IMG/VR virus record: IMGVR_UViG_3300047472_000033
Location: 1-56,249 of that record
DNA: 56,249 nucleotides
Strand: one strand, 5' to 3'
From: a virus
Shown here: piece by piece, positions 16,937 through 55,506 of the stretch
How the letters are laid out: every line of letters starts with the position of its first letter
Numbering within the stretch: position 1 is the stretch's first letter
Translations under genes and position numbers: made by a program
The notes under the pieces: generated by a model
What the model saw: the letters and a program-made list of their open reading frames with translations, nothing else
Told to the model about the DNA's origin: nothing
Database searches by the model: none

Positions 16937-17716
16937 ATGGATTTCAGCGCACTCTTCAAGGGTGCCGGAAAGGCCGCTGCAGCAAATTCGCCGGCGATCC
17001 TGACCGCACTCGCTGTGACGGGCACTCTTACGACCGCGTTCTTCGCGGCTAAGGGTGCCTTCAAGGCCAAGGAAGTCATCGACGATGCTCAGGCTACGCA
17101 CGACGCCGAAGAGCAGAGTCACCCGTTCACGACCAGGGAGAAGTTCGATCTCACCTGGAAGTGCTACATCCCCGCGGCGGCTTCCGCTGCTCTGACCGTG
17201 GCGGCGATCATCGGGCTCAACCGCATGGGCGAGCGACGTGCGGCAGCTATGGCTGCTGCATATTCCACGATCCAGAAGGGGTACGAGGAGTACTCCAAGT
17301 CGACGAAGACGAAGCTCGGGAAGACCAAGGAAGAGGCGATGCGTGCGGACATCGCCCAGCGTCGTATCGACGACACTCCGAACAACAGGCTCCCGCGCTT
17401 CATCCAGGACTCCGGTCCAACGATGTGCTTCGATGCCTGGTCGGGTCGATATTTCGGCAGTGACGTGAACTCGATCGACGCCGCCGTGAACGAGTTCAAC
17501 CGGAAGATCATCAACGACAACTACGCATCGCTGAGCGACTTCTGGTACCTGCTCTCCGAGCACGAGCTCCCGCCGACCTCCGGGTCGGACCAGGTCGGAT
17601 GGACCACTGACAACCTCCTGGAGCTCACCAAGGTCTACGGAACGCACATGGGGAATCCCTGCCTCGTCATCGACTTCGAGGTTCCCCCGACCATGAAGTA
17701 CGACACGCTGTATTGA
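16937..17716 (+). CDS. DUF6353-family membrane protein, paralogue 1
   Basis: 259 residues. Two hydrophobic segments at about 19-38 (PAILTALAVTGTLTTAFFAA) and 76-95 (IPAAASAALTVAAIIGLNRM) flank a KAKEVIDDAQ helix. A long helical stretch (about 98-150) and a C-terminal domain follow, with GPTMCFDAWSGRYF and PCLVIDFEVPP. The same architecture occurs in the protein at 21297. I associate it with DUF6353, a phage family of unknown role. It may build a membrane-bound complex with the neighbouring single-span proteins. Confidence 0.7.
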   Translation: MDFSALFKGAGKAAAANSPAILTALAVTGTLTTAFFAAKGAFKAKEVIDDAQATHDAEEQSHPFTTREKFDLTWKCYIPAAASAALTVAAIIGLNRMGERRAAAMAAAYSTIQKGYEEYSKSTKTKLGKTKEEAMRADIAQRRIDDTPNNRLPRFIQDSGPTMCFDAWSGRYFGSDVNSIDAAVNEFNRKIINDNYASLSDFWYLLSEHELPPTSGSDQVGWTTDNLLELTKVYGTHMGNPCLVIDFEVPPTMKYDTLY

Positions 17717-21121: not shown

Positions 21122-21300
21122 AATTCCTCGCAGGATTCGCACTGGGTGCTGCCGCCGGCAAACCCATCATGAAGGCGGTACGAATCTACGTTGTGCCTGT
21201 GGTACAGCGCAAGATCACCGCAAGCATCACCGGCATTTTCGCTTGGTCTGAGGGCTACCTCGCCGAGCATGACAAGATCAACAAGGAGAACAACCGATGA
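21118..21300 (+). CDS. Small membrane protein
   Basis: 60 residues from GTG 21118, overlapping the preceding stop (GTGA) and preceded by AAGGCGAA. A Gly/Ala-rich N-terminus (FLAGFALGAAAGKPIMKAVR), an IYVVPVVQRK segment and an acidic-Asn end. Part of a tightly coupled membrane-protein operon. Confidence 0.68.
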   Translation: MKFLAGFALGAAAGKPIMKAVRIYVVPVVQRKITASITGIFAWSEGYLAEHDKINKENNR

Positions 21301-22235
21301 GTATCAAGACTCTTGGCCATGCCATCAGTCGCAAGGCCACCAAGCAGGTCCTGACCGTCCAGAAGCACTCCCCCGTCCTGCTGATCGGCGTGGGTCTCAT
21401 CGGCGTTGGAACCTCCATGGTCCTCGCCTGCCGTGCGACGCTCAAGGCAAGCGATATCCTCGAAGAGGGTGAGAAGAACAAGTCCAAGTTCGAGCACGCC
21501 ACTCGGATGATGGACGAGGGTCGTGAGACCGAGCTCACCGACGAAGAGAAGAACATTCTGAAGAAGGGTCTCTTTGGGATCCAGCTTCGGGTCGCCTTCG
21601 AGATCACCAAGAAGTACGCGCCGGCCATCGCCCTTGGTGTGGCTTCTGTGGGTGCCATGGCGGGATCGCACATCATCCTGCAGCGCCGGAACGCTGGCCT
21701 TGCCGCGGCTCTTGGCATCGCTCACAAGGGCTTCGAGCAGTACCGGTCTCGCGTCGTCGAGGAGCTGGGTTCGGAGAAGGACCTCGAGTTCCGCTACGGC
21801 ACCATCGAAGAGACGGTGATCGAGGAGACCCCCGAAGGCCCGGTGGCCAAGACGATCAAGCGTATCGACAACAAGAGTGACACGACCGAGGTCGCCTACG
21901 CGCAGTTCTTCGACCCGGAGAACGTGAACTGGCGGGATATCCCGAACCAGAACACGCACTACATCCAGGGTCTTCAGCAGCACTTCAACAACCGCCTGCG
22001 GCTTGACGGCGTCGTCGTCCTGAACGACGTGTACGAGGCACTCGGCTTCAAGAAGACCAAGGCGGGTCACCTGGTCGGCTGGGTTCGCGACGCCGAAGAG
22101 GGTGACAACTTCATCGACTTCATCATCGTCGGCGACAAGCGGCACCGCATGGACTTCGCCAAGGGTCGCGTCATGGAACTCATGATCGACTTCAACGTCC
22201 AGGGCAACATCCTCGACCACATCTCGGAGCTCTGA
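21297..22235 (+). CDS. DUF6353-family membrane protein, paralogue 2
   Basis: 312 residues, ATGA overlap with the previous gene. Two membrane segments at about 24-45 (SPVLLIGVGLIGVGTSMVLA) and 97-120 (YAPAIALGVASVGAMAGSHI) with a KASDILEEGE helix between them, a long helix containing AHKGFEQYRSRVVEE, and a C-terminal domain with EVAYAQFFDPENVNWRDIPN and LMIDFNVQGN. Same architecture as the protein at 16937, so they are paralogues. I associate it with DUF6353; the role is unknown. Confidence 0.75.
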   Translation: MSIKTLGHAISRKATKQVLTVQKHSPVLLIGVGLIGVGTSMVLACRATLKASDILEEGEKNKSKFEHATRMMDEGRETELTDEEKNILKKGLFGIQLRVAFEITKKYAPAIALGVASVGAMAGSHIILQRRNAGLAAALGIAHKGFEQYRSRVVEELGSEKDLEFRYGTIEETVIEETPEGPVAKTIKRIDNKSDTTEVAYAQFFDPENVNWRDIPNQNTHYIQGLQQHFNNRLRLDGVVVLNDVYEALGFKKTKAGHLVGWVRDAEEGDNFIDFIIVGDKRHRMDFAKGRVMELMIDFNVQGNILDHISEL

Positions 22236-23587: not shown

Positions 23588-26500
23588 GTGACGCTGGACT
23601 TCATTCAGTTCATCACGAAGGAAACCAAAAACGGGATCGAAGTAAGACCCGATTTCGTGGTTGGTCGTTCTACGGATCTGATGGTCCAGGGTGGGGCATT
23701 TTACGCCATCTGGAACGAAGAGAAGAAGCTTTGGTCCAGAGACGAGTACGACGTACAGAAACTCGTTGATGCGGAAGTCAAGGCGTTCGCCGAGGAATAT
23801 GTGGAGAAGGGCGTTGAGGTAGCTCCCAAGTACCTCAAGAACTTCGCCAATGGTGGGTGGAAGCAGTTCCGTGCGTTCGTCAAGAACGTCAGTGACAACT
23901 CCCACCCCCTCGACACGAGACTGACTTTCGCTGATACGAAGACTAAGAAGTCGGACTATGCCAGCCGTCGACTCTCCTACATCCTTGCTCCGGGCGATAT
24001 CAGTGCCTACGATGAACTAGTCAGTCTCCTGTACTCCGAAGAGGAGCGCGAGAAGTTCGAGTGGGCTATCGGTGCCATCATCTGCGGTGACGCCAAGAAG
24101 ATTCAGAAATTCTTGGTGTTCTACGGCAAGGGTGGTACCGGTAAGTCAACCATCATGGATATCGTGTTCCTGTTGCTCGGGGGCAAGGTCTCTGATGGTG
24201 GGTATGTCGCGATGTTCGACGCTAAGTCTCTCGTGGGGAATAACGGCGCCTTTGCTACGGAGGCGTTCAAGGACAACCCGCTGGTTGCCATTCAGCAGGA
24301 CGGTGACCTGTCCAAGATCGAAGACAACTCCAAGTTGAACTCGATCATTTCTCACGAGGACATGCGGGTCAACGAGAAGTACAAGGCGACTTACGACACC
24401 AAGGTCAATGCATTCCTCTTCATGGGCACCAATAAGGCCGTGAAGATCTCGGACGCAAAGTCTGGTCTTATCCGTCGCCTTATCGACGTCAACCCTACCG
24501 GTGAAACCCATTCGCCGGATCGATATTTCACGCTTGTCGACAGGTTGAAGTTCGAGCTGGGCGGGATCGCTTATCACTGCCTCCAGGTCTACAAGACCCT
24601 TGGTAGGAATTACTACAGCGATTATCGCCCTGAGAACATGATGCTCAAGACCAACGTGTTCTACAACTACATCGACTGGTACCGAGACATCTTCAAGGCT
24701 CAGGACGGCACGACCCTGAAGCAGGCATGGGAGCTTTATCTCGAATACGCGAAGGAAGCGGAACTCGAGTTCAAAACCCCTCGCCATATCTTCGGGGAAG
24801 AGTTGAAGAACTACTTCCACGAGTTCCATGAGCGTCGTCCCATGCCAGACGGATCACACCCCCGGAAGGTTTATGTTGGGTTCAAGAATCCCAACCCGTT
24901 CAAGGCGCCTGTGGACAAGGCTCATAAGATCTTCACTCTGGTTCTGGAAGAAACCGAATCACTCCTAGACGAGATGTATGCTGGGCTGCCTGCTCAGTAC
25001 ACGTCGAAGGCCGGAACCCCGAAGAGCAAGTGGGAAAGCGTCAAGACTACCCTTGGCGATATCGACACTCAGCAGCTGCATTACCTCAAGGTCCCCGAGA
25101 ACCATATCGTCATCGACTTCGACTTGAAGGACGAGAACGGGGAAAAGTCGCTAGAGGCGAACCTCATTGAGGCTAGCAAATTCCCGCAGACCTATGCCGA
25201 GGTGAGTAAGAGCGGCAACGGTGTTCACCTGCATTACATCTATGATGGGGACGTATCCGATCTCGCTCGGGTATATTCCGACAACATCGAGATTAAGGTC
25301 TACACCGGAAACTCTTCGCTTCGACGCCAGCTGACGTGGTGCAACAACGTAGCGGTGGCCACGATCAACGGCGGTCTGCCCTTCAAGGAGAATAAGTCAA
25401 TGCCCGCGTCCAAGTCCATGATGCAGACCGAGCAGGGCATCCGAGCCCTTATCGCCAAGAACCTTAGGAAGGGGGTCCACCCCGGCACCAAGCCCTCGAT
25501 GGAGTTCATCGAGCATATCCTCAAGGAAGCCAACAAGAACGGCGTCATTTATGACGTCAGCGACATGTTCCAGAAGATGTTCGCCTTCTGCAACAACAGC
25601 AAGAAGAACTCCGAGTACTGCATGACGATCCTCGAGCGGCTTCAGTTGAAGTCGGAGAAGTCATTCGACGAGATCGAAGAGGCTGAGAAGCCTTACGAGT
25701 CGGTGGCAGAGGCTGAGAAGCAGATCGTATTCTTCGACTGCGAGGTGTACCCCAACCTTTTCGTGGTCTGCTGGAAGTACCTCGGTACGCCGAACTCCAG
25801 TGTCGTCTCGATGATCAACCCGACGCCGGCCGAGATCGAACAGTTCATCTACTCGAACAAGCTCATCGGCTTCAACAACCGATCCTACGACAACCATATC
25901 CTCTGGGCTCGGTTCCTCGGATGTGACAACGAGGCTCTCTACGAGCTCTCGCAGCGGATCATCACCAAGAAGGACCAGAACGCCAAGTTCGGTCAGGCGT
26001 ACAGCATTTCCTACGCCGACGTGTACGACTACAGCTCCACCAAGATGGGCCTGAAGAAGTGGGAGATCTTCCTCGGCATTCCTCACGTCGAGATGGATAT
26101 TCCATGGGACAAGCCGGTCCCGGAGAAGCTGTGGACCAAGGTCGTCAACTACTGCATCAATGACGTCAACGCCCTGGAAGCGGTCTTCAACTACTGCAAG
26201 CAGGACCTAGTTGCTCGTGAGATCCTGGCGAGCATGAGTGGGCTGTCGGTCAACAACCCGACTCGGCAGCACGCGATCAAGATCATCTTTGGGGACGATC
26301 GAACCCCTCAGTCGAAGTTCGTGTACACGGACCTCTCCGAGATGTTTCCTGGGTACAAGTTCGACCCGTACTCCAAGAACGAGAAGAGTACCTACAGGGG
26401 CGAGGTCGCCGGCGAGGGTGGCTACGTCTATGCCGAGCCTGGCATCCACAAGAACGTCGCGCTCCTGGATGTCGCTTCGATGCACCCCACCTCGATCGAG

Positions 26501-27517
26501 GAGTTGAACCTCTTCGGTCCATACACGACGAAGTTCTCGGCTCTGAAGAACGCTCGTCTCGCTCTTAAGAACGGTGAGTACGAGTCGATCAAGGATATTC
26601 TCCCCTGGGAGATCGAAGGGGTCAAGAGCGACGCAGATGCCTCGGCTCTGTCGGACGCCCTGAAGCTCGTGATCAACTCGGTCTATGGGTACACCTCTGC
26701 CAAGTTCGAGAACCCGTTCAGGGACCCGCGCAACATCGACAACATCGTCGCCAAGCGTGGTGCTCTGTTTATGATCGACCTGAAGCACGCGATTCAGGAA
26801 CAGGGGTTTACGGTCGCTCACATCAAGACCGACTCCGTCAAGATCCCCAACGCGACGCCGGACATCATCGCCTTCGTCCAGGAGTTCGGTGCCAAGTACG
26901 GCTACACGTTCGAGCACGAGGCCACCTACGAGAAGATGTGCCTCGTGAACGACGCTGTGTACGTCGCTTACGAGAAGGAGTCTGTCAAGAAGGGCAAGAC
27001 GGTCCCGGCCCACTGGACAGCTACTGGAGCGGAGTTCAAGCACCCGTACGTCTTCAAGACCCTCTTCACCAAGGAACCCATTTCCTGGGCAGATCTGGGC
27101 GAGACCAAGATGGTCAAGGAGGGTGCTATGTACCTCCGGTACCCCGAAGGTCAGATGGAGGTCGGGCAGGAAGAGGTCACGGAGAACGGCGATATTCACA
27201 TCGGCCGCTCTGGTCTGTTCATCCCCGTCAACCCCATGCAGAGCGACATCGTGGGCGGTCAGCTCCTTCGCATCAAGGACGGCAGGGAGTACGCCGTTAC
27301 GGGTACCAAGGGCTACAAGTGGGTCGAGGAAGACACGGTACGGCAGCGCTACGGCGACGCCATCGATCGTCTGACCTTCGAGCGCTTCGATCAGTCCGAG
27401 GTCGGTACCGGAGGGATCCGGGACATCGTCGACGAGATGTATTATAACCAGCTCGCCGAGAACGCGGCTCAGTCCATCATGGAATTCGGTGACTTCGACG
27501 AATTCGTGACGGTCTGA
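23588..27517 (+). CDS. Fused SF3 helicase - AEP-type primase - family B DNA polymerase
   Basis: 1309 residues from GTG 23588 (site AGAAAGGAGG). Domains in order: N-terminal region about 1-150; SF3/P4-type helicase about 150-330 with Walker A GKGGTGKST near 180 and an acidic QQDGDL motif near 235; archaeo-eukaryotic-type primase about 470-600 with IDFDLKD near 508 and SGNGVHLHYIY near 542; 3'-5' exonuclease about 710-860 with FDCEVYPN, IGFNNRSYDN and YCINDV; family B polymerase about 900-1240 with motif A LLDVASMHP near 960, motif B LVINSVYG near 1027 and motif C IKTDSV near 1079. It appears to hold unwinding, priming, synthesis and proofreading in one chain. Motifs are seen directly; activities are inferred. 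Confidence 0.85.
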   Translation: MTLDFIQFITKETKNGIEVRPDFVVGRSTDLMVQGGAFYAIWNEEKKLWSRDEYDVQKLVDAEVKAFAEEYVEKGVEVAPKYLKNFANGGWKQFRAFVKNVSDNSHPLDTRLTFADTKTKKSDYASRRLSYILAPGDISAYDELVSLLYSEEEREKFEWAIGAIICGDAKKIQKFLVFYGKGGTGKSTIMDIVFLLLGGKVSDGGYVAMFDAKSLVGNNGAFATEAFKDNPLVAIQQDGDLSKIEDNSKLNSIISHEDMRVNEKYKATYDTKVNAFLFMGTNKAVKISDAKSGLIRRLIDVNPTGETHSPDRYFTLVDRLKFELGGIAYHCLQVYKTLGRNYYSDYRPENMMLKTNVFYNYIDWYRDIFKAQDGTTLKQAWELYLEYAKEAELEFKTPRHIFGEELKNYFHEFHERRPMPDGSHPRKVYVGFKNPNPFKAPVDKAHKIFTLVLEETESLLDEMYAGLPAQYTSKAGTPKSKWESVKTTLGDIDTQQLHYLKVPENHIVIDFDLKDENGEKSLEANLIEASKFPQTYAEVSKSGNGVHLHYIYDGDVSDLARVYSDNIEIKVYTGNSSLRRQLTWCNNVAVATINGGLPFKENKSMPASKSMMQTEQGIRALIAKNLRKGVHPGTKPSMEFIEHILKEANKNGVIYDVSDMFQKMFAFCNNSKKNSEYCMTILERLQLKSEKSFDEIEEAEKPYESVAEAEKQIVFFDCEVYPNLFVVCWKYLGTPNSSVVSMINPTPAEIEQFIYSNKLIGFNNRSYDNHILWARFLGCDNEALYELSQRIITKKDQNAKFGQAYSISYADVYDYSSTKMGLKKWEIFLGIPHVEMDIPWDKPVPEKLWTKVVNYCINDVNALEAVFNYCKQDLVAREILASMSGLSVNNPTRQHAIKIIFGDDRTPQSKFVYTDLSEMFPGYKFDPYSKNEKSTYRGEVAGEGGYVYAEPGIHKNVALLDVASMHPTSIEELNLFGPYTTKFSALKNARLALKNGEYESIKDILPWEIEGVKSDADASALSDALKLVINSVYGYTSAKFENPFRDPRNIDNIVAKRGALFMIDLKHAIQEQGFTVAHIKTDSVKIPNATPDIIAFVQEFGAKYGYTFEHEATYEKMCLVNDAVYVAYEKESVKKGKTVPAHWTATGAEFKHPYVFKTLFTKEPISWADLGETKMVKEGAMYLRYPEGQMEVGQEEVTENGDIHIGRSGLFIPVNPMQSDIVGGQLLRIKDGREYAVTGTKGYKWVEEDTVRQRYGDAIDRLTFERFDQSEVGTGGIRDIVDEMYYNQLAENAAQSIMEFGDFDEFVTV

Positions 27518-29606: not shown

Positions 29607-29830
29607 TTCGGAGGTGGATCTACCGGCTTGGGTTCACGCCTAAGCCGGGGTCCATATTCTTCTCACCGACCCATCATCTCAATCGTCTCATGAAACCGGC
29701 AGCAGAGGCTTTCACCAAGTGTCTTCAGACAGGGGTTATATCCCCGAATGAAGGTCGAGAGCTGTACAAGGCTGCCTACCAGAACGCAGTAGCTTCGATG
29801 CAGAAGCACGAACAATCAGGAGCACAATAA
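29606..29830 (+). CDS. Small protein without a canonical start (ATT start or -1 frameshift product)
   Basis: A protein-like frame runs through RRWIYRLGFTPKPGSIFFSP, then THHLNRLMKPAAEAF and a helical end, resembling short actinophage proteins I have seen with a PRPGSIFFSP-type motif. No ATG, GTG or TTG lies at its beginning; the first ATG (29690) would remove the conserved-looking part. Options are an ATT start at 29606, which overlaps the previous stop and has GGGGAG 11 bases upstream, or a -1 slip of the upstream gene on the G5 run at 29588-29592. At minimum 29690-29830 (46 residues) is open. Confidence 0.45.
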   Translation: MRRWIYRLGFTPKPGSIFFSPTHHLNRLMKPAAEAFTKCLQTGVISPNEGRELYKAAYQNAVASMQKHEQSGAQ

Positions 29831-30456
29831 TGGCAGTCCCCGCACGACGACGCGTCTCTGAGGAGCTTGTCCTCGAGGACGTCCGTCTCATCTTCCGCAA
29901 CTTCAAGGGGGAGGAGCGTCTCCCCTACAACGCTGCGGGTGACCGCAACTTCTCGATCCCGCTCGACCACGAGCTGGCGATGAAGCTCCAGGAGATCGGA
30001 TGGACCATCAAGGGTGGCAAGGTCCGTGAGGACGGCGAGCCCCCTCTCTGGCACCTTCCGGTCAAGGTCAGTTACAAGGGCCGGCCTCCACGCATCTTCA
30101 CGATCTCCGACTTCGGCACCGCCCGGAACGAGATCAAGGAGCGGTTCGTTCACTTCCTCGACCAGCTCGAGTTCGACCTCGTGGATGTCACGCTCAGCCC
30201 CTACAACTGGGACATGAACGGGCGTCAGGGATGCTCGGCCTACCTCAAGACGTTCTACGGCACGGTCCACGAGGACCCGTTGGACATCAAGTACCGCGGC
30301 GTGGGACAGCTCGCGATCGAGGGTGGTAGGAGCCCGGAACAGCTCGCGATCGACTCTGGACTCGAGAACCGGTTCGACGACGAGGACATCATCGATGTCG
30401 AGGGTGAGTGGATCGAAGACAGCGAGCAGCTCGCTCTGTCTCGCGGTACCAGCTGA
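29830..30456 (+). CDS. Probable single-stranded DNA-binding protein
   Basis: 208 residues. The motifs LVLEDVRLIFRNFKGEE, GDRNFSIPLDHELAMKLQEI, YKGRPPRIFTIS and SPYNWDMNGRQGCSAYLKTF mark a family frequent in actinophages and Firmicutes phages that is often annotated as ssDNA-binding (OB-like). The acidic C-terminal tail (DDEDIIDVEGEWIEDSEQ) fits an SSB-like protein that recruits partners. It is the best candidate to coat single strands for the fused replisome at 23588. The exact family name is from memory. Confidence 0.6.
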   Translation: MAVPARRRVSEELVLEDVRLIFRNFKGEERLPYNAAGDRNFSIPLDHELAMKLQEIGWTIKGGKVREDGEPPLWHLPVKVSYKGRPPRIFTISDFGTARNEIKERFVHFLDQLEFDLVDVTLSPYNWDMNGRQGCSAYLKTFYGTVHEDPLDIKYRGVGQLAIEGGRSPEQLAIDSGLENRFDDEDIIDVEGEWIEDSEQLALSRGTS

Positions 30457-38103: not shown

Positions 38104-38715
38104 ATGAGTCTCGAAATCGTAAGGTTCGACGGATTCAACGCTCACTCAAGGCTAGACGGCTCACACGCCTTTCTCAGCCCCTCGAACTACCACTGGCTAA
38201 ACTACCCTCCAGACAAGCTCCTCGAGCGTCTAAGGACTGCTCAAGCTGCTTCTGAGGGTACCGAGCTCCATCTGCTTGCCGCGCTCAACATCAAGCACGG
38301 TACCAAGCTTATGGAGACAGACGAGAACAAGACGCTGTGGCTCTACGTCAACGACTGCATTCGATTCGGCATGTCACCCGAGCAGACCTTGTTCTACTCG
38401 ATGAACTGCTACGGTACGGCCGATGCTATCGGATTCGCACCAAACGAAGATGGCGAGAAGTACGCCGGCTACCTTCGCATCAGTGACCTGAAGACGGGTC
38501 TGACGAAGGCATCGGATAAGCAGCTCTACATCTACGCAGGGCTGTTCTGTCTGGAGTACGGCTACCTCCCGTATGAAATCGAAGGCGAACTCACCATCTA
38601 CCAGAACGGTCACCGAAACATCACTTTGATTGATCGGAACTTTCTGGCGTTCGTGTACGACAAGATCCAAACCTCACATGAGACCATCGAGAACTCGAAG
38701 GGAGGACTGCTGTGA
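38104..38715 (+). CDS. RecB/Cas4-like PD-(D/E)xK exonuclease
   Basis: 203 residues. Catalytic motifs GTADAIGF near 103, ISDLKTG near 127 (D-x-K) and QLYIYA near 140 (Q-x3-Y of the RecB family) are present and correctly spaced; a helical N-terminus carries an HLLAALNIKHG segment. No Fe-S Cys cluster is seen. It likely processes ends for recombination or replication together with the VRR-NUC protein upstream. Confidence 0.8.
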   Translation: MSLEIVRFDGFNAHSRLDGSHAFLSPSNYHWLNYPPDKLLERLRTAQAASEGTELHLLAALNIKHGTKLMETDENKTLWLYVNDCIRFGMSPEQTLFYSMNCYGTADAIGFAPNEDGEKYAGYLRISDLKTGLTKASDKQLYIYAGLFCLEYGYLPYEIEGELTIYQNGHRNITLIDRNFLAFVYDKIQTSHETIENSKGGLL

Positions 38716-41405
38716 TCATTGACGAAGAACATCGAGACGATCTAGTCATCGATGAAGAAGACCACCTCACGCATTACGGCATCCTCCGTAAGTCGGGTCG
38801 GTATCCATGGGGTTCTGGTGAAACTCCTCACGAGCGGGCCAACTCCTTCCTCGGTTACCTCAAGAGTTTCCGTAAAGAAGGAATGACCGACACTGAGATT
38901 GCTCATGCGTGGGGTATGACCACGTCTCAGCTTCGTGACACCGTCTCAATAGCGAATGAGGCGAAGAAGACTGCTGACATCGCTCAGGCTATGAAGCTGA
39001 AATATGATGTTGGCATGTCCAACGTCGCCATCGGTAAGAAGATGGGCATTGGCGAGTCCAGTGTTCGCTTGCTCCTGAAGCAGGGAGAAGCCGATAGGCA
39101 GCCGATTCTGGATACTACTGCTGAGATGCTTCGTCAAGAGGTAGCCAGCAAGAAGTACATCGATGTAGGTCGAGGCGTTGAGGTCCAACTTCACATCAGT
39201 GAGAAGAAGCTCAAGACCGCGGTCTCAGTCCTCAAGGAAGAGGGCTACAGCTTCCACTACATCCAAGTCCCCCAACTTGGAACCGGTAAGAAGACCAACA
39301 TAAAGGTGTTGTCTGCTCCGGGCACCACGTATGCCGAGGTCTCCAAGAACAAGGCTGAGATCAAGCAGATCCGTAAGAGCAGCCGAGATGGTGGTCGTTC
39401 TTACGATGAGATCCTTCCACCCATCTCGATCGATTCGAAAAGGGTCAAGGTTCGTTATGCCGAAGAAGGCGGAACTGATGCGGACGGCACGATCTATGTC
39501 CGCCCTGGCGTAAAAGACGTTTCCCTTGGAAGCGCCAAATATGCACAGGTTCGCATCGCTGTTGACGGTAGCCACTACCTCAAGGGTATGGCCCTCTACA
39601 GAGATGATCTGCCTGCCGGTGTAGACCTAGTGTTCAACACGAACAAGAAGAACACCGGGAATAAGCTGGATGCCATGAAGCCGATGAAGAAGGATCCTGA
39701 CGATCCTTTCGGTTCCATGATCGCTGACCAGCTCAAGGAGATGGGCCCTGATGGGAAGCTCCGCCCGAGTTCAGTAATGAACATCGTCAACCAGGAGGGC
39801 AACTGGGATGAGTGGTCCAAGACACTCTCGTCTCAGATGTTGTCGAAGCAGAAGCCTAGCCTTGCGGACCATCAGCTTGCGCTGACCCGTGAAGCCAAGC
39901 AGCGCGAGTTCGACACGATCATGAGTCTCACCAATGAGACCGTTAAGAAGCACCTTCTGGAGAAGTTCGCTGACGAGACTGATTCAGCTGCCGTTCACCT
40001 CAAGGCGGCGCACCTTCCTCGACAGAAGACGAAGGTAATACTTCCGATCAACTCGATGAAGGAAACCGAGATCTATGCACCGTCCTTCCGAGATGGTGAA
40101 AAAGTAGTTCTCGTTCGGTTCCCTCATGGACACATCTCTGAGATCCCTGAGCTCACCGTCAACAACCGTCACCCCGAAGCCAAGAAGATTCTTGGTAATG
40201 CACCTGATGCTGTCGGCATCCACCATGCGGTTGCCGAACGTCTCTCTGGTGCAGACTTCGATGGTGACACTGTACTTGTCATCCCGAACAACCTAGGCAA
40301 GGTCAGGAACAAGGCTCAGCTTGAGGAACTGAAGGGTTTCGATCCTCAGTCCGAATACAAGGGTTACCCTGGCATGCCCCAGATGACATCTCAGCAAAAG
40401 GGTAGTGAGATGGGGAAGGTTTCCAACCTCATCACGGACATGACTGCCCTTGGCGCACCTGACGCTGAGATCGCGCGAGCGCTCAAGCATTCCATGGTCG
40501 TCATCGATGCTGAGAAGCATGGGCTGGATTACAAGCGCTCTGCCATCGAGAATGGTATCCCAGCCCTGAAGAAGAAGTATCAGGGTGGTGCTACCAGAGG
40601 CGCTGCAACAATCGTGTCTAGGGCCAAGTCTACTGAGCGAGTGCTCGATAGAAAGCCCCGATCCGCCAAGGAAGGCGGACCGATTGACAGGGCTACTGGA
40701 AAACTGGTTTACACAGAGACCGGCGCTGAGTACACCAATGGCAACCCGAAGATGATCAAGTCTACGAAGCTTGCCGAAACGCACGATGCGCACACACTGG
40801 TTTCTGATCACCAGGCTCCTATCGAGAAGATCTATGCAGATCACTCGAACGCCCTTAAGAAGATGGCTAACGATGCGAGGTTGGCAACCCTCGACATCAA
40901 GGGAATCGTTCGCTCCCCCTCTGCCGCGAAAGCGTATGAGAAGGAAGTGAAGGATCTGGAAGCATCCCTCCAGGAGGCTCTCAGGAACGCCCCCTATGAG
41001 AGACAAGCCCAGCTCCTAGGTAACGCCATCTACCAGCTCAAGAAAGAATCGAATCCTGACCTGGACGATGCCGATCTGAAGAAGCTCAAGGCAAAGGCCA
41101 TTAAGGAAGCTCGTCTCAGGGTGGGTGCTGAAAAGCAGTCCATCGACATCACGCCCAAGCAATGGGAAGCCATCCAGGCTGGAGCTATCAGTAAGACACA
41201 GCTCGAGCACATCCTTGACAACACAGACGTGGACAAGATCAAGGAACTGGCTACACCTAGGGACAAGCCGGTTATGAGTGTGGCTGATAAGAACCGCGCT
41301 CTTCTCCTGCTTCGTGATGACAAGTACAGCCTTGCTGACGTGGCTGATCAGCTTGGTGTATCGGTGTCCACTCTAACTGCAGCCATGCGTGGTGATGCAG
41401 CATGA
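38712..41405 (+). CDS. YonO-like single-chain RNA polymerase candidate (DFDGD motif)
   Basis: 897 residues from GTG 38712 (GTGA overlap). The segment with LVRFPHGHISEIPE followed by HAVAERLSGADFDGDTVLVI matches the second double-psi beta barrel of the beta-prime RNA polymerase subunit, in which R-x-P, then N-ADFDGD binds catalytic Mg; the three Asp are residues 515, 517 and 519. Length and motif fit the YonO/crAss-like one-chain polymerases. The N-terminus has an LTHYGILRKSGRYPWGSGE tag-like stretch (19-37), then two predicted helix-turn-helix-like segments (MTDTEIAHAWGMTTSQLRD and SNVAIGKKMGIGESSVRLLL). A third similar HTH is at the C-terminus. Polymerase activity is inferred. Confidence 0.7.
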   Translation: MIIDEEHRDDLVIDEEDHLTHYGILRKSGRYPWGSGETPHERANSFLGYLKSFRKEGMTDTEIAHAWGMTTSQLRDTVSIANEAKKTADIAQAMKLKYDVGMSNVAIGKKMGIGESSVRLLLKQGEADRQPILDTTAEMLRQEVASKKYIDVGRGVEVQLHISEKKLKTAVSVLKEEGYSFHYIQVPQLGTGKKTNIKVLSAPGTTYAEVSKNKAEIKQIRKSSRDGGRSYDEILPPISIDSKRVKVRYAEEGGTDADGTIYVRPGVKDVSLGSAKYAQVRIAVDGSHYLKGMALYRDDLPAGVDLVFNTNKKNTGNKLDAMKPMKKDPDDPFGSMIADQLKEMGPDGKLRPSSVMNIVNQEGNWDEWSKTLSSQMLSKQKPSLADHQLALTREAKQREFDTIMSLTNETVKKHLLEKFADETDSAAVHLKAAHLPRQKTKVILPINSMKETEIYAPSFRDGEKVVLVRFPHGHISEIPELTVNNRHPEAKKILGNAPDAVGIHHAVAERLSGADFDGDTVLVIPNNLGKVRNKAQLEELKGFDPQSEYKGYPGMPQMTSQQKGSEMGKVSNLITDMTALGAPDAEIARALKHSMVVIDAEKHGLDYKRSAIENGIPALKKKYQGGATRGAATIVSRAKSTERVLDRKPRSAKEGGPIDRATGKLVYTETGAEYTNGNPKMIKSTKLAETHDAHTLVSDHQAPIEKIYADHSNALKKMANDARLATLDIKGIVRSPSAAKAYEKEVKDLEASLQEALRNAPYERQAQLLGNAIYQLKKESNPDLDDADLKKLKAKAIKEARLRVGAEKQSIDITPKQWEAIQAGAISKTQLEHILDNTDVDKIKELATPRDKPVMSVADKNRALLLLRDDKYSLADVADQLGVSVSTLTAAMRGDAA

Positions 41406-43855: not shown

Positions 43856-44236
43856 GTGGCACAGAGCATTCTAGACACTACCAAGAAGACCGTAGGTCTT
43901 TCTTCAGATGATGACAGCTTTGATGACGACATCGTGATGCACATCAACACAGCTCTGTCAACTCTGAACCAACTGGGGATAGGCCCAACTGAGGGCTTCG
44001 AGGTAGAAGACTCCTCGGCCACGTGGGACGACTTCCTTGGCGGTGACAAGCGCCTCAACTTCGTAAAGACGTACGTCTACCTCCGAGTACGTCTCGTGTT
44101 CGACCCATGGCAAACCTCATTCGTCATCGACTCGATGAACAAGCAGATCCAAGAGCTTGAGTGGCGGATGAACGTCCTCAGGGAAGGAGAAGCATGGACG
44201 GATCCAACCGTTCCCGTATCCGTTCCGGCAGTCTGA
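43856..44236 (+). CDS. Head-tail connector protein (gp6-like)
   Basis: 126 residues from GTG 43856, eight bases after GGAGGTG (a GTG at 43847 lies inside the ribosome site). DDDIVMHINTALSTLNQLGI, then FVKTYVYLRVRLVFDPWQTS and a C-terminal helix match the phage gp6-like connector fold. It normally sits below the portal; here the gene lies upstream of the large terminase. It overlaps the next gene by 43 bases. Confidence 0.75.
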   Translation: MAQSILDTTKKTVGLSSDDDSFDDDIVMHINTALSTLNQLGIGPTEGFEVEDSSATWDDFLGGDKRLNFVKTYVYLRVRLVFDPWQTSFVIDSMNKQIQELEWRMNVLREGEAWTDPTVPVSVPAV

Positions 44237-44706
44237 CCCACTATGGCGTCAAGGGTATGAAGTGGGGTGTGACTCACAACCCGTCAGGGGGTGGCTCAGG
44301 TTCCCGATCTCGTGCTTCCGAAGATGCCAAGGCAGTTGCCGTAGCAACCCGCAAGATTGAGACTCACGGCACCAATGCCCTGAGCAACAAGGAACTTCAG
44401 AACGTCATCTCTCGGATGAATCTGGAGAACCAGTACCACAAGCTGACGACCGAGAACAATGACTACCTCGATCATGGTCTGGCAGCATCCAAGAAGGTCC
44501 TCAAGATCGGTAAGACGATCGAGGAGGCTCGGAAGTTCTTGGAGACTCCAACTGGTCAGGCAGTCAAGACCGGTGTCCTGGCTTCACTCACAGCAATCAA
44601 GGTGGCAGCCGCCTTCAAGACTGGTGGAGCTTCCGCCGCCGCTACCAAGGGCGCCTCGATCGTCATTCGTAAAGCGGCGAACCACTACACCAACGTAGGG
44701 AACTAG
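44194..44706 (+). CDS. Tag-bearing virion-module protein 1 (HYGVKGMKWGV)
   Basis: 170 residues from ATG 44194 with AAGGAGAAG upstream. Residues 14-26 are LTHYGVKGMKWGV, the motif shared with four more proteins at 46477-48700. After a Gly/Ser/Arg linker comes a helical body (RKIETHGTNALSNKELQNVI, LENQYHKL) and a hydrophobic segment near 128-150 (VLASLTAIKVAAAFKTGG), possibly membrane-active. Candidate internal head protein ejected with DNA; function unknown. Confidence 0.65.
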   Translation: MDGSNRSRIRSGSLTHYGVKGMKWGVTHNPSGGGSGSRSRASEDAKAVAVATRKIETHGTNALSNKELQNVISRMNLENQYHKLTTENNDYLDHGLAASKKVLKIGKTIEEARKFLETPTGQAVKTGVLASLTAIKVAAAFKTGGASAAATKGASIVIRKAANHYTNVGN

Positions 44707-46476: not shown

Positions 46477-46842
46477 ATGGCCCACATCATCGCTGACAAC
46501 ACCGAGATCTTCCACTATGGCGTCAAGGGTATGCACTGGGGAGTTCGGAGAGAAGAGAAAGCCGCCCAGAAGAATGCTCGTAGAGTCGCCAAGGGCGGTG
46601 AACTCGTTCGAAAGGCCCAGTCCAAGGGAATCAAGAACCCAGCAGCTGCTATCGCTCTGCGTGGAGCTGGTGAGGTAGGCGTTATCCTCTTCACCGGAAC
46701 CAAGATCTCCAACGCCATATCCAACCAGAACGCCAGGAACGGGGCTCACATCGTCAAACTCGCCCTCGCTGGCAAGGTTGGAGCGACTCGTATCGGAGAA
46801 ATCCGGGCGGTCAACGCATACAACAAGCAGAACGCGGGGTAG
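46477..46842 (+). CDS. Tag-bearing virion-module protein 2 (HYGVKGMHWGV)
   Basis: 121 residues. Residues about 13-25 carry FHYGVKGMHWGVRREEK. The body is basic with two hydrophobic stretches (AAIALRGAGEVGVILFTGTK, VKLALAGKVGATRIGE), which suggests a membrane-interacting or DNA-associated internal virion protein. GAGGAGG ribosome site. Function unknown. Confidence 0.62.
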   Translation: MAHIIADNTEIFHYGVKGMHWGVRREEKAAQKNARRVAKGGELVRKAQSKGIKNPAAAIALRGAGEVGVILFTGTKISNAISNQNARNGAHIVKLALAGKVGATRIGEIRAVNAYNKQNAG

Positions 46843-46845
46843 ACG

Positions 46846-47547
46846 GTGTCAAGCACCGACCTGACCCACCATGGCATCAAAGGGATGCATTGGGGAGTCC
46901 GTAAGGACGAACAAGTATCTGGTCGATTCGCAGGTCCCGGACCCGAAGTAGACGCGGCCCTTCACGAGTCCACGAAAGTAGCCGCTACAAAAGTGGCTGC
47001 TCTGATCGGTGACCGGTACGATTTTCGTATCCGGAAAGTCATTGCCATGGGACCCGGTCATCCTGAGTATGAAGCAGGAACCATGGGTTTCGTCCAGAAC
47101 ACCGGCAAACAAAAGGCCGAAGGCGAAATTCTCGTAACCGTGGATGATACTCGTCCTGCTCTGAAGAAGTGCGAGAAGGTGAAGTGGGTCGGTAAAGGCT
47201 GCGGAACTACCGAAGCTTTTCTCACCCACGAAGCTGGTCATGCCATCTTCCATTCTCGTGAGTACTACAAAAAAGACGGAACAATTGGTGGCGGGAACAT
47301 CGAGGCCCGTATGAAGGCCATGCAGGCCGCCTTTGATCAGTCTGAAAAAGACGGTATACCGGAAAGAAAGTTCATGTCCTCGATCTCGGGTTATGCGCGC
47401 CATGGTGCGAATAAAGAAGAAGTCGAAGCTGAACTGTTTTCTCAATACCACTGGGGTACGAATCCCCCGGAGTTCGTAAAGGTGTGGGGTCAAACCCTCC
47501 ACAATGAGTTGGGTATTGATGGTACTCCATTCAAAGAGAGGGGGTAA
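46846..47547 (+). CDS. Tag-bearing zincin-like metalloprotease (HHGIKGMHWGV + HEAGH)
   Basis: 233 residues from GTG 46846. LTHHGIKGMHWGV at 6-18 is the shared tag. A central domain contains LTHEAGHAIFH (zinc motif HEAGH, residues 128-132) and, about 70 residues later, SGYARHGANKEEVEAELFSQYHW, where E in a GANxEExxAE context is the usual third ligand of zincins. A tagged protease in this position could process virion proteins or be injected to act on the host. Activity and targets are inferred. Confidence 0.68.
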   Translation: MSSTDLTHHGIKGMHWGVRKDEQVSGRFAGPGPEVDAALHESTKVAATKVAALIGDRYDFRIRKVIAMGPGHPEYEAGTMGFVQNTGKQKAEGEILVTVDDTRPALKKCEKVKWVGKGCGTTEAFLTHEAGHAIFHSREYYKKDGTIGGGNIEARMKAMQAAFDQSEKDGIPERKFMSSISGYARHGANKEEVEAELFSQYHWGTNPPEFVKVWGQTLHNELGIDGTPFKERG

Positions 47548-47549
47548 CC

Positions 47550-48122
47550 ATGTACAAGACACCAGGTTTTGTCACGCCGTTCTCATATTCTTCGGAGGAA
47601 GAACTCGATGCAGATCTCAAACGACGTGGTGAAGCTTCTGGATCCACGCCGTTCGAAGTTTCCTATTCCGAAGGAAAGGGAATCAAGCACCACGGTGTCA
47701 AGGGCATGCACTGGGGAGTTCGAAAGAACACTCCTACCAATGCCAACTACGCCAAGTCTCAGCAGAGATACGACCGTAACAACGTCGGCAAGGGCGGCGT
47801 CAAGCGCATCAACAGGCGCATGAACAAGGGCATGGACATCAAGTCCGCCCGTAAGGCTGAGTTCACCTTCCGAGGTAGGCGAGCCTCCGCTCTTGTTGCC
47901 TCTGCTGCAATCGCCAAGATGGCTTACATGTACGGACCTACGATCAAGACCATCCTTCAGATGGTCGGCGGAGTAGCAGCCCAGTCGGTAGCCAAGCGAG
48001 CTGAAACGAACCGTGGTCGAGCCGCTGCGGCAAATGCCAGAGGGATCCCGAGGATGGGTTCTTCCGGTCCGAGCTATGCCAAGAAGAAGCGTAGCGGAGC
48101 CTACAACATCTCGTCGATCTAG
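47550..48122 (+). CDS. Tag-bearing virion-module protein 4 (HHGVKGMHWGV)
   Basis: 190 residues. A 48-residue lead (MYKTPGFVTPFSYSSEEELD onward) precedes the tag KHHGVKGMHWGVRKNTP at about 50. The rest is very basic (RRMNKGMDIKSARKAEFTFR) with one hydrophobic stretch (MAYMYGPTIKTILQMVGGVA). Likely DNA-bound in the head. Function unknown. Confidence 0.62.
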   Translation: MYKTPGFVTPFSYSSEEELDADLKRRGEASGSTPFEVSYSEGKGIKHHGVKGMHWGVRKNTPTNANYAKSQQRYDRNNVGKGGVKRINRRMNKGMDIKSARKAEFTFRGRRASALVASAAIAKMAYMYGPTIKTILQMVGGVAAQSVAKRAETNRGRAAAANARGIPRMGSSGPSYAKKKRSGAYNISSI

Positions 48123-48145: not shown

Positions 48146-48700
48146 TTGTACACAGTCAAGGGAACGCCGCCCTCTAGTGATCTCACACACTATGGTGTCA
48201 AAGGGATGCACTGGGGCGTTCGTCGCGATGGTCCTGAAGGCGTACCTGGTAGAACCAACCGAGAAGCCAAGAAGGATGCCAAGGAATTCGCTCGAGCCAA
48301 GCAGTTCTATGGTGAAGGCGCCGGCACCCGACGCAAGCTGATCAAGGCCACAGTCGAGGGTAAGAGTCGACGGAGTCCTTACTACAAGAAGGCCTTCGAC
48401 CACCACCTCGAAAGGCAGGACACATCCAAGCACGCCGCCAAGGCTCAGAGCGAGCGTAAGCGGAAGAACATCAAGAAGAGCACCGGTCGAGGAATTCGTG
48501 GAACTCGCCACATCCTCAACGGTAATTCTCAGTACGCCTCTGCAGTAACAGCCATTGCAGTCGGTGGGGCTTTGTACGCTCACAAGACCGGTATTGACAA
48601 GATCGTGTTCAATGCCGGAAAGACTGCAGTCAAGAAGCTCCGAGACCCCAATGGGATCAAGCGAGCTCAGGATCTGCTCAAGGGCATGGGAATCGGCTGA
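48146..48700 (+). CDS. Tag-bearing virion-module protein 5 (HYGVKGMHWGV)
   Basis: 184 residues from a TTG start, supported by a strong GGAGGGAGG site. DLTHYGVKGMHWGVRRDG at about 12-29, then a Lys/Arg-rich body (NREAKKDAKEFARAKQFYGE, KRKNIKKSTGRGIRG) and a hydrophobic segment (YASAVTAIAVGGALYAHK). The TTG start may keep its dose low. Function unknown. Confidence 0.62.
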   Translation: MYTVKGTPPSSDLTHYGVKGMHWGVRRDGPEGVPGRTNREAKKDAKEFARAKQFYGEGAGTRRKLIKATVEGKSRRSPYYKKAFDHHLERQDTSKHAAKAQSERKRKNIKKSTGRGIRGTRHILNGNSQYASAVTAIAVGGALYAHKTGIDKIVFNAGKTAVKKLRDPNGIKRAQDLLKGMGIG

Positions 48701-52966: not shown

Positions 52967-53255
52967 TCTCCAGACACTCCTAGAGGGGGTGCTGGGAAGC
53001 CGTAACGTGTATTTCCAGCCCCCTACCGGCCTCCAAATTCAGTATCCATGCATTGTGTATCAACGTGACAACGCAATCACTGAGTTTGCCTCCAACAAGC
53101 CGTACGCCCATACCAAGCGGTACCAGGTGACGGTCATCGATTTGGATCCCGACAGCGAGATCCCCGATAAAGTCGCAGCTCTGCCAATGTGTGAACGAAA
53201 CAGGTTCTTCGTGGCAGACAAGCTCAACCACGACGTCTTCAATCTTTACTTCTGA
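52950..53255 (+). CDS. Tail terminator/neck protein
   Basis: 101 residues from ATG 52950 with GGGGAG upstream (a GTG nine bases earlier is possible). LQTLLEGVLGSRNVYFQPPT, PCIVYQRDNA and KRYQVTVIDLDPDSEIPDKV fit the gpU-like tail terminator family (a beta sheet with a YQVTVID strand). Its place between head closure and major tail tube agrees. Confidence 0.72.
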   Translation: MAQRLDLQTLLEGVLGSRNVYFQPPTGLQIQYPCIVYQRDNAITEFASNKPYAHTKRYQVTVIDLDPDSEIPDKVAALPMCERNRFFVADKLNHDVFNLYF

Positions 53256-53268
53256 AAGGGAGTATTCC

Positions 53269-54135
53269 ATGACCAAGATCGCTTGGGACCAGTCCGGTCA
53301 GCGGGTGTACGAGACCGGCGTCGACCGCGGTGTCCTGTACCTCCCCGATGCCTCGGGTGCCTACGTGAACGGCTACGCCTGGAACGGTCTGACGACCGTC
53401 ACGGAGTCGCCCTCTGGCGCCGAGTCCAACAAGACGTACGCCGACAACCGTGTCTACTCCAACCTGATCTCCATCGAGCAGTTCGGTGGCACGATCGAGG
53501 CCTACACCTACCCGGCCGAGTTCGGTCAGTGTGACGGAAGCGCGTCCCCCTCGGCCGGCGTCTCCATCGGCCAGCAGCCCCGCAAGACCTTCGGTGTGTC
53601 CTACCGGACCCTGGTCGGAAACGACATCAGCGGTACCGAGTACGGCTACAAGCTCCACCTGGTCTACGGTGCCATGGCGGCTCCGTCGGAGAAGGCTTTC
53701 GCCACGGTCAACGACTCGCCTGAGTCCATCACCTTCAGCTGGGAGATCTCGACCACCCCGGTCGACGTTCCTGGCTACAAGCCGACGGCCACTCTCACGA
53801 TCGACTCGACCAAGGTCGATGCCGCCGCCCTGGCCAACCTCGAGGACTTCCTGTACGGCACCGCGGGTACCAACCCGTCTCTTCCGCTGCCGGCAGACGT
53901 CTTCGCGATCTTTGCCTCCGGCATCACCGAGGTCTTCCCGACCGCTCCTACCTTCAACTCGGGTACTCACGTCATCACGATTCCCACCGTGACCGGCGTG
54001 CAGTACAAGATCAACGGCATCGTCAAGACCGGTGCGGTCACCATCACCCAGGACACGATCGTCACCGCCAACCCGACGACTGGCTACCGCTTCCCGCCGG
54101 TGTCGGACAACGACTGGTTCTTCGACTTCGTCTAA
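53269..54135 (+). CDS. Major tail tube protein with C-terminal decoration domain
   Basis: 288 residues from ATG 53269, GAAAGGGAG site. TETGVDRGVLYLPD-like opening, YAWNGLTTVTESPSGAESNK, EAYTYPAEFGQCDG, and RTLVGNDISG strands define a siphovirus tube fold. Residues about 224-288 (PTFNSGTHVITIPTVTGVQY, ending DWFFDFV) are an added Ig-like domain closely similar to the end of the capsid protein. Strong GC codon bias fits abundant production. Confidence 0.85.
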   Translation: MTKIAWDQSGQRVYETGVDRGVLYLPDASGAYVNGYAWNGLTTVTESPSGAESNKTYADNRVYSNLISIEQFGGTIEAYTYPAEFGQCDGSASPSAGVSIGQQPRKTFGVSYRTLVGNDISGTEYGYKLHLVYGAMAAPSEKAFATVNDSPESITFSWEISTTPVDVPGYKPTATLTIDSTKVDAAALANLEDFLYGTAGTNPSLPLPADVFAIFASGITEVFPTAPTFNSGTHVITIPTVTGVQYKINGIVKTGAVTITQDTIVTANPTTGYRFPPVSDNDWFFDFV

Positions 54136-54720: not shown

Positions 54721-55506
54721 ATGCCGCGGATCGCATGGGGCGCCCCCGGTGAGCGTTTCTATGAGGCCGGTGTTGACCGAGGTGTTCTGTACGTCGGTGC
54801 ACTACCGGGTGCCCCCTGGAATGGGTTGACATCCGTCAACGTGAGTTCTTCCGGTGGAGACGCAAAAGCGTACTACATCGATGGGATAAAGTATCTGAAC
54901 ATCCCTTCGTCAGAGGAATTCGAAGCGACCATAACCGCCTACACGTACCCCAAGTTGTTTGGGGAATGCGATGGCACAGTCCAAGTTCGAACAGGACTGT
55001 TCGTAACGCAGCAGCGGAGAAAGTCTTTCGGATTCTCTTTCCGCACCCAGGTGGGTAACGAACTGACGTCGGATCTCGGCTACAAGATCCACATCGTGTA
55101 CAACGCACTAGCCGCCCCAACCGACAGGAAGAATGCCACTCTCAGCGACAATGCTGATGCAGAAGATTTCAGTTGGAGTGTCACAACACGTCCTCCTGCC
55201 ATATCCGGCTACAGACGAACTTCGCATGTCGTCATCGATTCTCGTGAAACCGATCCTGTAACTCTTTCGGCAGTCGAAGATATTCTCTACGGCACCGACA
55301 TCAATACAGCACGACTTCCTGACTTTGCTGAGCTGGTAACGATCTTCGATACCCTCACCACAGTCACGGTAACTGACAATGGCGATGGAACATTCACTGT
55401 AGTTGGTCCGGACAGTGCCGTTCAGATGCTGGATGCCGAGCTGTTCCAGATCACTTGGCCGACTGCCGTCTATATCGACGCAGACACCTACAACATCAGT
55501 TCCTAG
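54721..55506 (+). CDS. Second tail tube-like protein (paralogue)
   Basis: 261 residues. It aligns with the major tube protein at 53269 through IAWGAPGERFYEAGVDRGVL, APWNGLTSVNVSSSGGDAKA, TAYTYPKLFGECDGT, RTQVGNELTSDLGYKIHIVY and the VEDILYGT end. It lacks the Ig-like C-terminal domain. Codons are less GC-biased, so it is probably made in smaller amounts, for example as the tail-tip or neck-proximal ring. Confidence 0.8.
   Translation: MPRIAWGAPGERFYEAGVDRGVLYVGALPGAPWNGLTSVNVSSSGGDAKAYYIDGIKYLNIPSSEEFEATITAYTYPKLFGECDGTVQVRTGLFVTQQRRKSFGFSFRTQVGNELTSDLGYKIHIVYNALAAPTDRKNATLSDNADAEDFSWSVTTRPPAISGYRRTSHVVIDSRETDPVTLSAVEDILYGTDINTARLPDFAELVTIFDTLTTVTVTDNGDGTFTVVGPDSAVQMLDAELFQITWPTAVYIDADTYNISS

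Follow-up and report, generated by a model that had tools for sequence, protein, structure and literature searches.

A new sequence of the HelPrimPolB/GP55 kind: helicase, primase, exonuclease and family B polymerase domains in one chain encoded by a viral genome

The window, that is the whole stretch of viral DNA analysed here (56,249 bases), carries a long gene at 23588–27517 on the plus strand (stop included), which forms a single intact frame of 1309 codons. The gene starts with GTG, and an AGGAGG sequence lies a few bases 5' of the start codon. At its N-terminus, the 1309-aa product (hereafter the replicase) has an SF3/D5-type helicase; an archaeo-eukaryotic primase (AEP) domain and a small helical domain come next, and a 3'-5' exonuclease of the DEDD type leads to the family B polymerase at the C-terminus. 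The predicted features are listed below with the basis for each domain; GP55 is the homologous protein of lactococcal phage 1706.

23588–24877, plus strand: N-terminal region and SF3/D5-type helicase (aa 1–430; DUF5906, primase_Cterm, AlphaFold model)
24125–24151, plus strand: helicase motif, Walker A GKGGTGKST (Lys186)
24935–25387, plus strand: AEP (PriS-like) catalytic domain (aa 450–600; phage primase families, identity to GP55)
25112–25132, plus strand: AEP motif I, IDFDLKD (D510, D512)
25211–25237, plus strand: AEP motif II, SGNGVHLHY (H547)
25286–25300, plus strand: AEP motif III, IEIKV (E568)
25418–25663, plus strand: alpha-helical domain, aHD (aa 611–692; residue mapping to GP55, helices in the model)
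25703–26407, plus strand: 3'-5' exonuclease (aa 706–940; invariant residues, model with PolB fold)
25733–25756, plus strand: exonuclease motif ExoI, FDCEVYPN
25868–25894, plus strand: exonuclease motif ExoII, GFNNRSYDN
26150–26164, plus strand: exonuclease motif ExoIII, YCIND
26408–27514, plus strand: family B polymerase core (aa 941–1309; motifs, Pol II profile match, fold)
26468–26488, plus strand: polymerase motif A, DVASMHP
26663–26689, plus strand: polymerase motif B, KLVINSVYG
26819–26836, plus strand: polymerase motif C, HIKTDS

The earlier note on this DNA had described one 1309-residue frame with a series of motifs in a given order, and every one of them is present there: GKGGTGKST (residues 180–188), IDFDLKD (509–515), SGNGVHLHYIY (542–552), FDCEVYPN (716–723), DVASMHP (961–967), NSVYG (1030–1034) and KTDS (1080–1083). 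The key motif residues are unchanged in 18 of 18 aligned homologues, and in a search of phage protein families phrog_4210 ('DNA polymerase') covers residues 3–1308 with 1852 bits; these motifs are therefore no chance matches. The domains, and their order from helicase through primase and exonuclease to PolB, had been assigned correctly. The sequence-only search of the PDB with the whole replicase gave no significant match, so that the helicase and polymerase parts had to be identified by profiles and folds.

The helicase part is matched by Pfam DUF5906 (E=1.9e-12) and, below the cut-off, by the NCBIfam model TIGR01613 (primase_Cterm), and none of the 18 aligned homologues lacks its Walker A lysine. 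In the AlphaFold model of residues 1–712 (mean pLDDT 82), residues 1–425 align with the SaPI5 primase-helicase (7ola; Z 21.7, rmsd 4.3, 372 residues), and the poxvirus D5/E5 proteins follow with Z of 17–19. Residues 1–430 belong to the SF3 helicases, within the D5/primase-helicase type.

Residues 450–600 contain AEP motifs I–III, in which D510, D512, H547 and E568 are invariant in 22 sequences. Several phage primase families (phrog_3022, 695, 13901 and 1829) match this part with E of about 1e-6 to 1e-4, and its identity to the PriS-like domain of GP55 reaches 53%. The matches to Pfam Prim-Pol and to AEP-TOTE were marginal, the former below the cut-off, and the AEP profile found no match in the PDB even at E=10. 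The list of structure matches for the model of residues 1–712 was taken up by the helicase part. The predicted AEP domain, with its three motifs, is recognised from these sequence comparisons. It is followed by the aHD, for which the AlphaFold model gives helices at 615–626, 634–650, 658–669 and 675–684; Tyr655 and Phe667 are conserved at the positions aligned with GP55. In GP55, the aHD is required for priming, and the same two residues are essential (Zhang et al. 2025, PMC12205980).

In the C-terminal half, the exonuclease residues D717, E719, D768 and D859 are invariant in the 18 aligned homologues. Over its whole length, the AlphaFold model of residues 704–1309 (pLDDT 86, pTM 0.77) can be superposed on Pol alpha, E. 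coli Pol II and KOD polymerase (VIA-align Z of 13–16.5, with 16.5 for KOD), and the family profile matches E. coli Pol II with E=4e-7. The structural models thus bear out the earlier reading for both the helicase part (SF3/D5 fold, Z 21.7) and the PolB part (PolB fold, Z 16.5). In the profile match, KTDS aligns with the DTDS of E. coli Pol II. Motif C (HIKTDS) is divergent; D1082 corresponds to the second Asp of DTDS, and KTDS is invariant in the 18 aligned homologues.

Seven other genes of phage 1706 have homologues in the window, mostly in the same order:

21297–22235, plus strand: gp51 homologue, DUF6353 (phrog_2152 paralogue, upstream of the replicase gene)
29830–30456, plus strand: phage ssDNA-binding/single-strand annealing protein (SSAP), gp66 homologue (PF24083, E=2.8e-49; phrog_4787)
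34266: gp63 homologue (homology to phage 1706)
35432–36625, plus strand: accessory DNA helicase, gp67 homologue (phrog_62, E=1.3e-62; 39% identity to gp67)
37806: gp68 endonuclease homologue (homology to phage 1706)
38104–38715, plus strand: exonuclease, gp69 homologue (phrog_3953, E=2.6e-61; relatives annotated as Cas4 family)
38712–41405, plus strand: single-chain YonO-like RNA polymerase, gp75 homologue (phrog_4291 over residues 13–894, 1325 bits; DFDGD)

The SSAP is a candidate partner of the replicase at the fork. Several repeated genes were also observed in the window. The phrog_2152 family has two paralogues, at 16937–17716 and 21297–22235 (both plus strand), and a major tail protein (phrog_2645) occurs twice at a short distance, at 53191–54135 and 54721–55506 (plus strand). 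In the region of the terminase and portal genes, five genes (44161–44706, 46477–46842, 46846–47547, 47550–48122 and 48146–48700, plus strand) have a common short N-terminal segment, where phrog_7502, phrog_7021 and other families hit jointly, which suggests from sequence a duplicated family or a common tag.

The 897-aa RNA polymerase contains SGADFDGDT near residue 515, i.e., the DxDGD catalytic motif of the double-psi-barrel, which in YonO-like enzymes is carried by a single chain of about 100 kDa. The label 'YonO-like' is putative, drawn from the size of the single chain and its DFDGD motif; PHROGs label the family 'RNA-dependent RNA polymerase', and relatives in phage records are often annotated just as helix-turn-helix proteins. 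The presence of this gene requires a correction to the earlier statement that the genome encodes no other polymerase or primase. The statement holds for DNA polymerases and primases, as no second one of either turned up in a scan of 40 other ORFs, and fails for the RNA polymerase at 38712–41405, which had been missed.

In almost all of the phages examined, the replicase and the RNA polymerase occur together. Phage records with the replicase (at least 80% covered) number 252 and those with the RNA polymerase 250, and among the name groups listed the two counts are identical in each of the eight that are shared; these figures compare group totals, not individual records. In IMG/VR, 30 of the 31 records with the replicase also have the RNA polymerase, and the record of the single exception stops just past the replicase gene. 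No description of such a tight pairing was found in the literature searched. Shared ancestry is its simplest reason, since the large terminases are also highly conserved among related actinophages (76–92% identical in the four sampled, listed rows), and lineage probably explains most of the co-occurrence. It is rather improbable that the two enzymes form a functional pair beyond joint inheritance, with the RNA polymerase, e.g., opening or transcribing the origin.

The distribution of the replicase itself is wide. A tblastn search of 50,697 phage records matched 377, of which 252 had a coverage of 80% or more, and 36 further loci were found in IMG/VR. The search of viral databases that had been suggested for this domain order thus returned 252 full-length homologues. 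They come from phages of Arthrobacter, Gordonia, Streptomyces, Lactococcus, Curtobacterium, Rhodococcus, Microbacterium and other hosts, and in most of the records listed they are annotated as 'DNA primase/polymerase'. In the Enterococcus and Paenibacillus records examined, the match is limited to the exonuclease-polymerase part. The nearest homologue belongs to Streptomyces phage RosaAsantewaa (61% identity), and judging from the nearest relatives the host of the window virus is probably an actinobacterium.

Some records show departures from the single-gene arrangement. Two-piece matches in phages Bing and Scarif were considered as a split replicase and rejected, as both phages have a full-length replicase and a separate small helicase paralogue. 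The small protein (Bing, L040 1983–2438; Scarif, L039 1983–2426) is a stand-alone chain of 147–151 aa that resembles the replicase helicase core (residues 140–336); it is encoded four genes upstream of the full-length gene and is possibly a mini-SF3 paralogue. In Bifidobacterium phage BitterVaud1 (L045 1480–6110), the replicase is in two genes, with the break just before motif A (window residues 949/952), and a 213-aa ORF without a match to the replicase lies between the halves.

The earlier note had presented this combination of domains as unusual, which does not hold. A 2016 survey of viral replication proteins is reportedly its probable first description. The HelPrimPolB group of PolBs was named in 2020 for the N-terminal fusion of an SF3 helicase and a PrimPol, and it was placed in the EpsilonN-like PolB clade; its motif C, described as profoundly divergent, counts with the KxY motif among the traits of the group (Kazlauskas et al. 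2020, PMC7544198). Purified GP55 unwinds DNA in a UTP/dTTP-dependent manner, synthesises RNA primers, has 3'-5' exonuclease and polymerase activities and copies M13 DNA de novo, unaided; its primer extension was seen at 1.25 nM enzyme, and more than 1000 homologues have been reported (Zhang et al. 2025, PMC12205980). The window replicase is 37% identical to GP55 over residues 19–1304, nearly end to end. The residues mutated in GP55 map to the window protein as K189 to K186, D509 to D512, Y655 to Y655, F667 to F667, D712 to D717, E714 to E719 and D949 to D961, and all seven are identical. In an alignment of 34 sequences, five of them never vary, and the two in the aHD hardly do. The suggestion of a compact replisome is thus backed by the published biochemistry of a homologue.

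We are close to certain that the gene product serves a tailed phage as its replicative DNA polymerase and is a multifunctional replicase of the HelPrimPolB type homologous to GP55. By analogy with GP55, the window replicase would carry all four activities. The N-terminal SF3 helicase would unwind the duplex, driven by UTP/dTTP as in GP55, and the central AEP domain with the small helical domain would synthesise short RNA primers on the single-stranded template. At the C-terminus, the family B polymerase would extend these primers, while its exonuclease would proofread. As in GP55, the replicase may act as a dimer, in which one subunit primes and the other extends.

The AEP domain could instead be a degenerate structural remnant, with priming left to the host primase or to the phage YonO-like RNA polymerase. 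The window does encode this second polymerase, in principle an RNA-making one, and the AEP sequence diverges from the Pfam models. However, all the AEP catalytic residues are kept together with the aHD residues essential in GP55, and GP55, whose motifs are the same, synthesises RNA primers and needs no help to replicate M13, which leaves loss of priming very unlikely. An impaired polymerase is a still weaker proposition, one that we consider scarcely credible. It would follow from the loss of the first aspartate of motif C (KTDS instead of DTDS), in a group whose motif C is known to be profoundly divergent. Nevertheless, D1082 is retained in an invariant KTDS, and the motif C of GP55 (HVKTDS) has the same KTDS letters. 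GP55 polymerises, extending primers at nanomolar concentration; the loss of the first Asp is therefore no argument against activity, and the reading of KTDS as the mark of an inactive polymerase was rejected.

A multifunctional replicase of the GP55 kind, in which one chain unwinds, primes, proofreads and polymerises, would represent a minimal replisome and a possible enzyme tool, a value already established by GP55. Both the architecture and the biochemistry of HelPrimPolB have already been published. What the window adds is one well-conserved member, whose source appears to be an actinobacteriophage, together with the finding that residues on which GP55 depends are kept throughout the family.

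As a protein of this known and characterised kind, the window replicase is new in sequence. With the HelPrimPolB group it shares the N-terminal SF3 helicase and PrimPol fused to PolB, and its motif C likewise looks divergent; in these features no difference was found. Its likeness to GP55 (YP_001828703) extends to the length (1309 vs. 1317 aa), the domain order, the mapped catalytic and aHD residues and the KTDS motif C. The loci are also alike, with a DUF6353-type protein upstream and SSAP, helicase, small endonuclease, exonuclease and YonO-like RNA polymerase downstream. The two differ in sequence (37% identity overall) and in host, which is Lactococcus for phage 1706 and probably an actinobacterium for the window virus; the activities demonstrated for GP55 are predicted for the window protein. 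The proteins of the Streptomyces/Arthrobacter/Gordonia phage type (e.g., RosaAsantewaa gp39, Miek gp56 and Rainydai gp57) are full-length homologues of about 50–61% identity and differ by sequence divergence only. In contrast, the stand-alone PolBs of Enterococcus phage PMBT2 and Paenibacillus phage LincolnB share the exonuclease-PolB core (about 24% identity, roughly residues 700–1115) but lack the fused helicase and primase, and in both genomes primase genes are annotated elsewhere.
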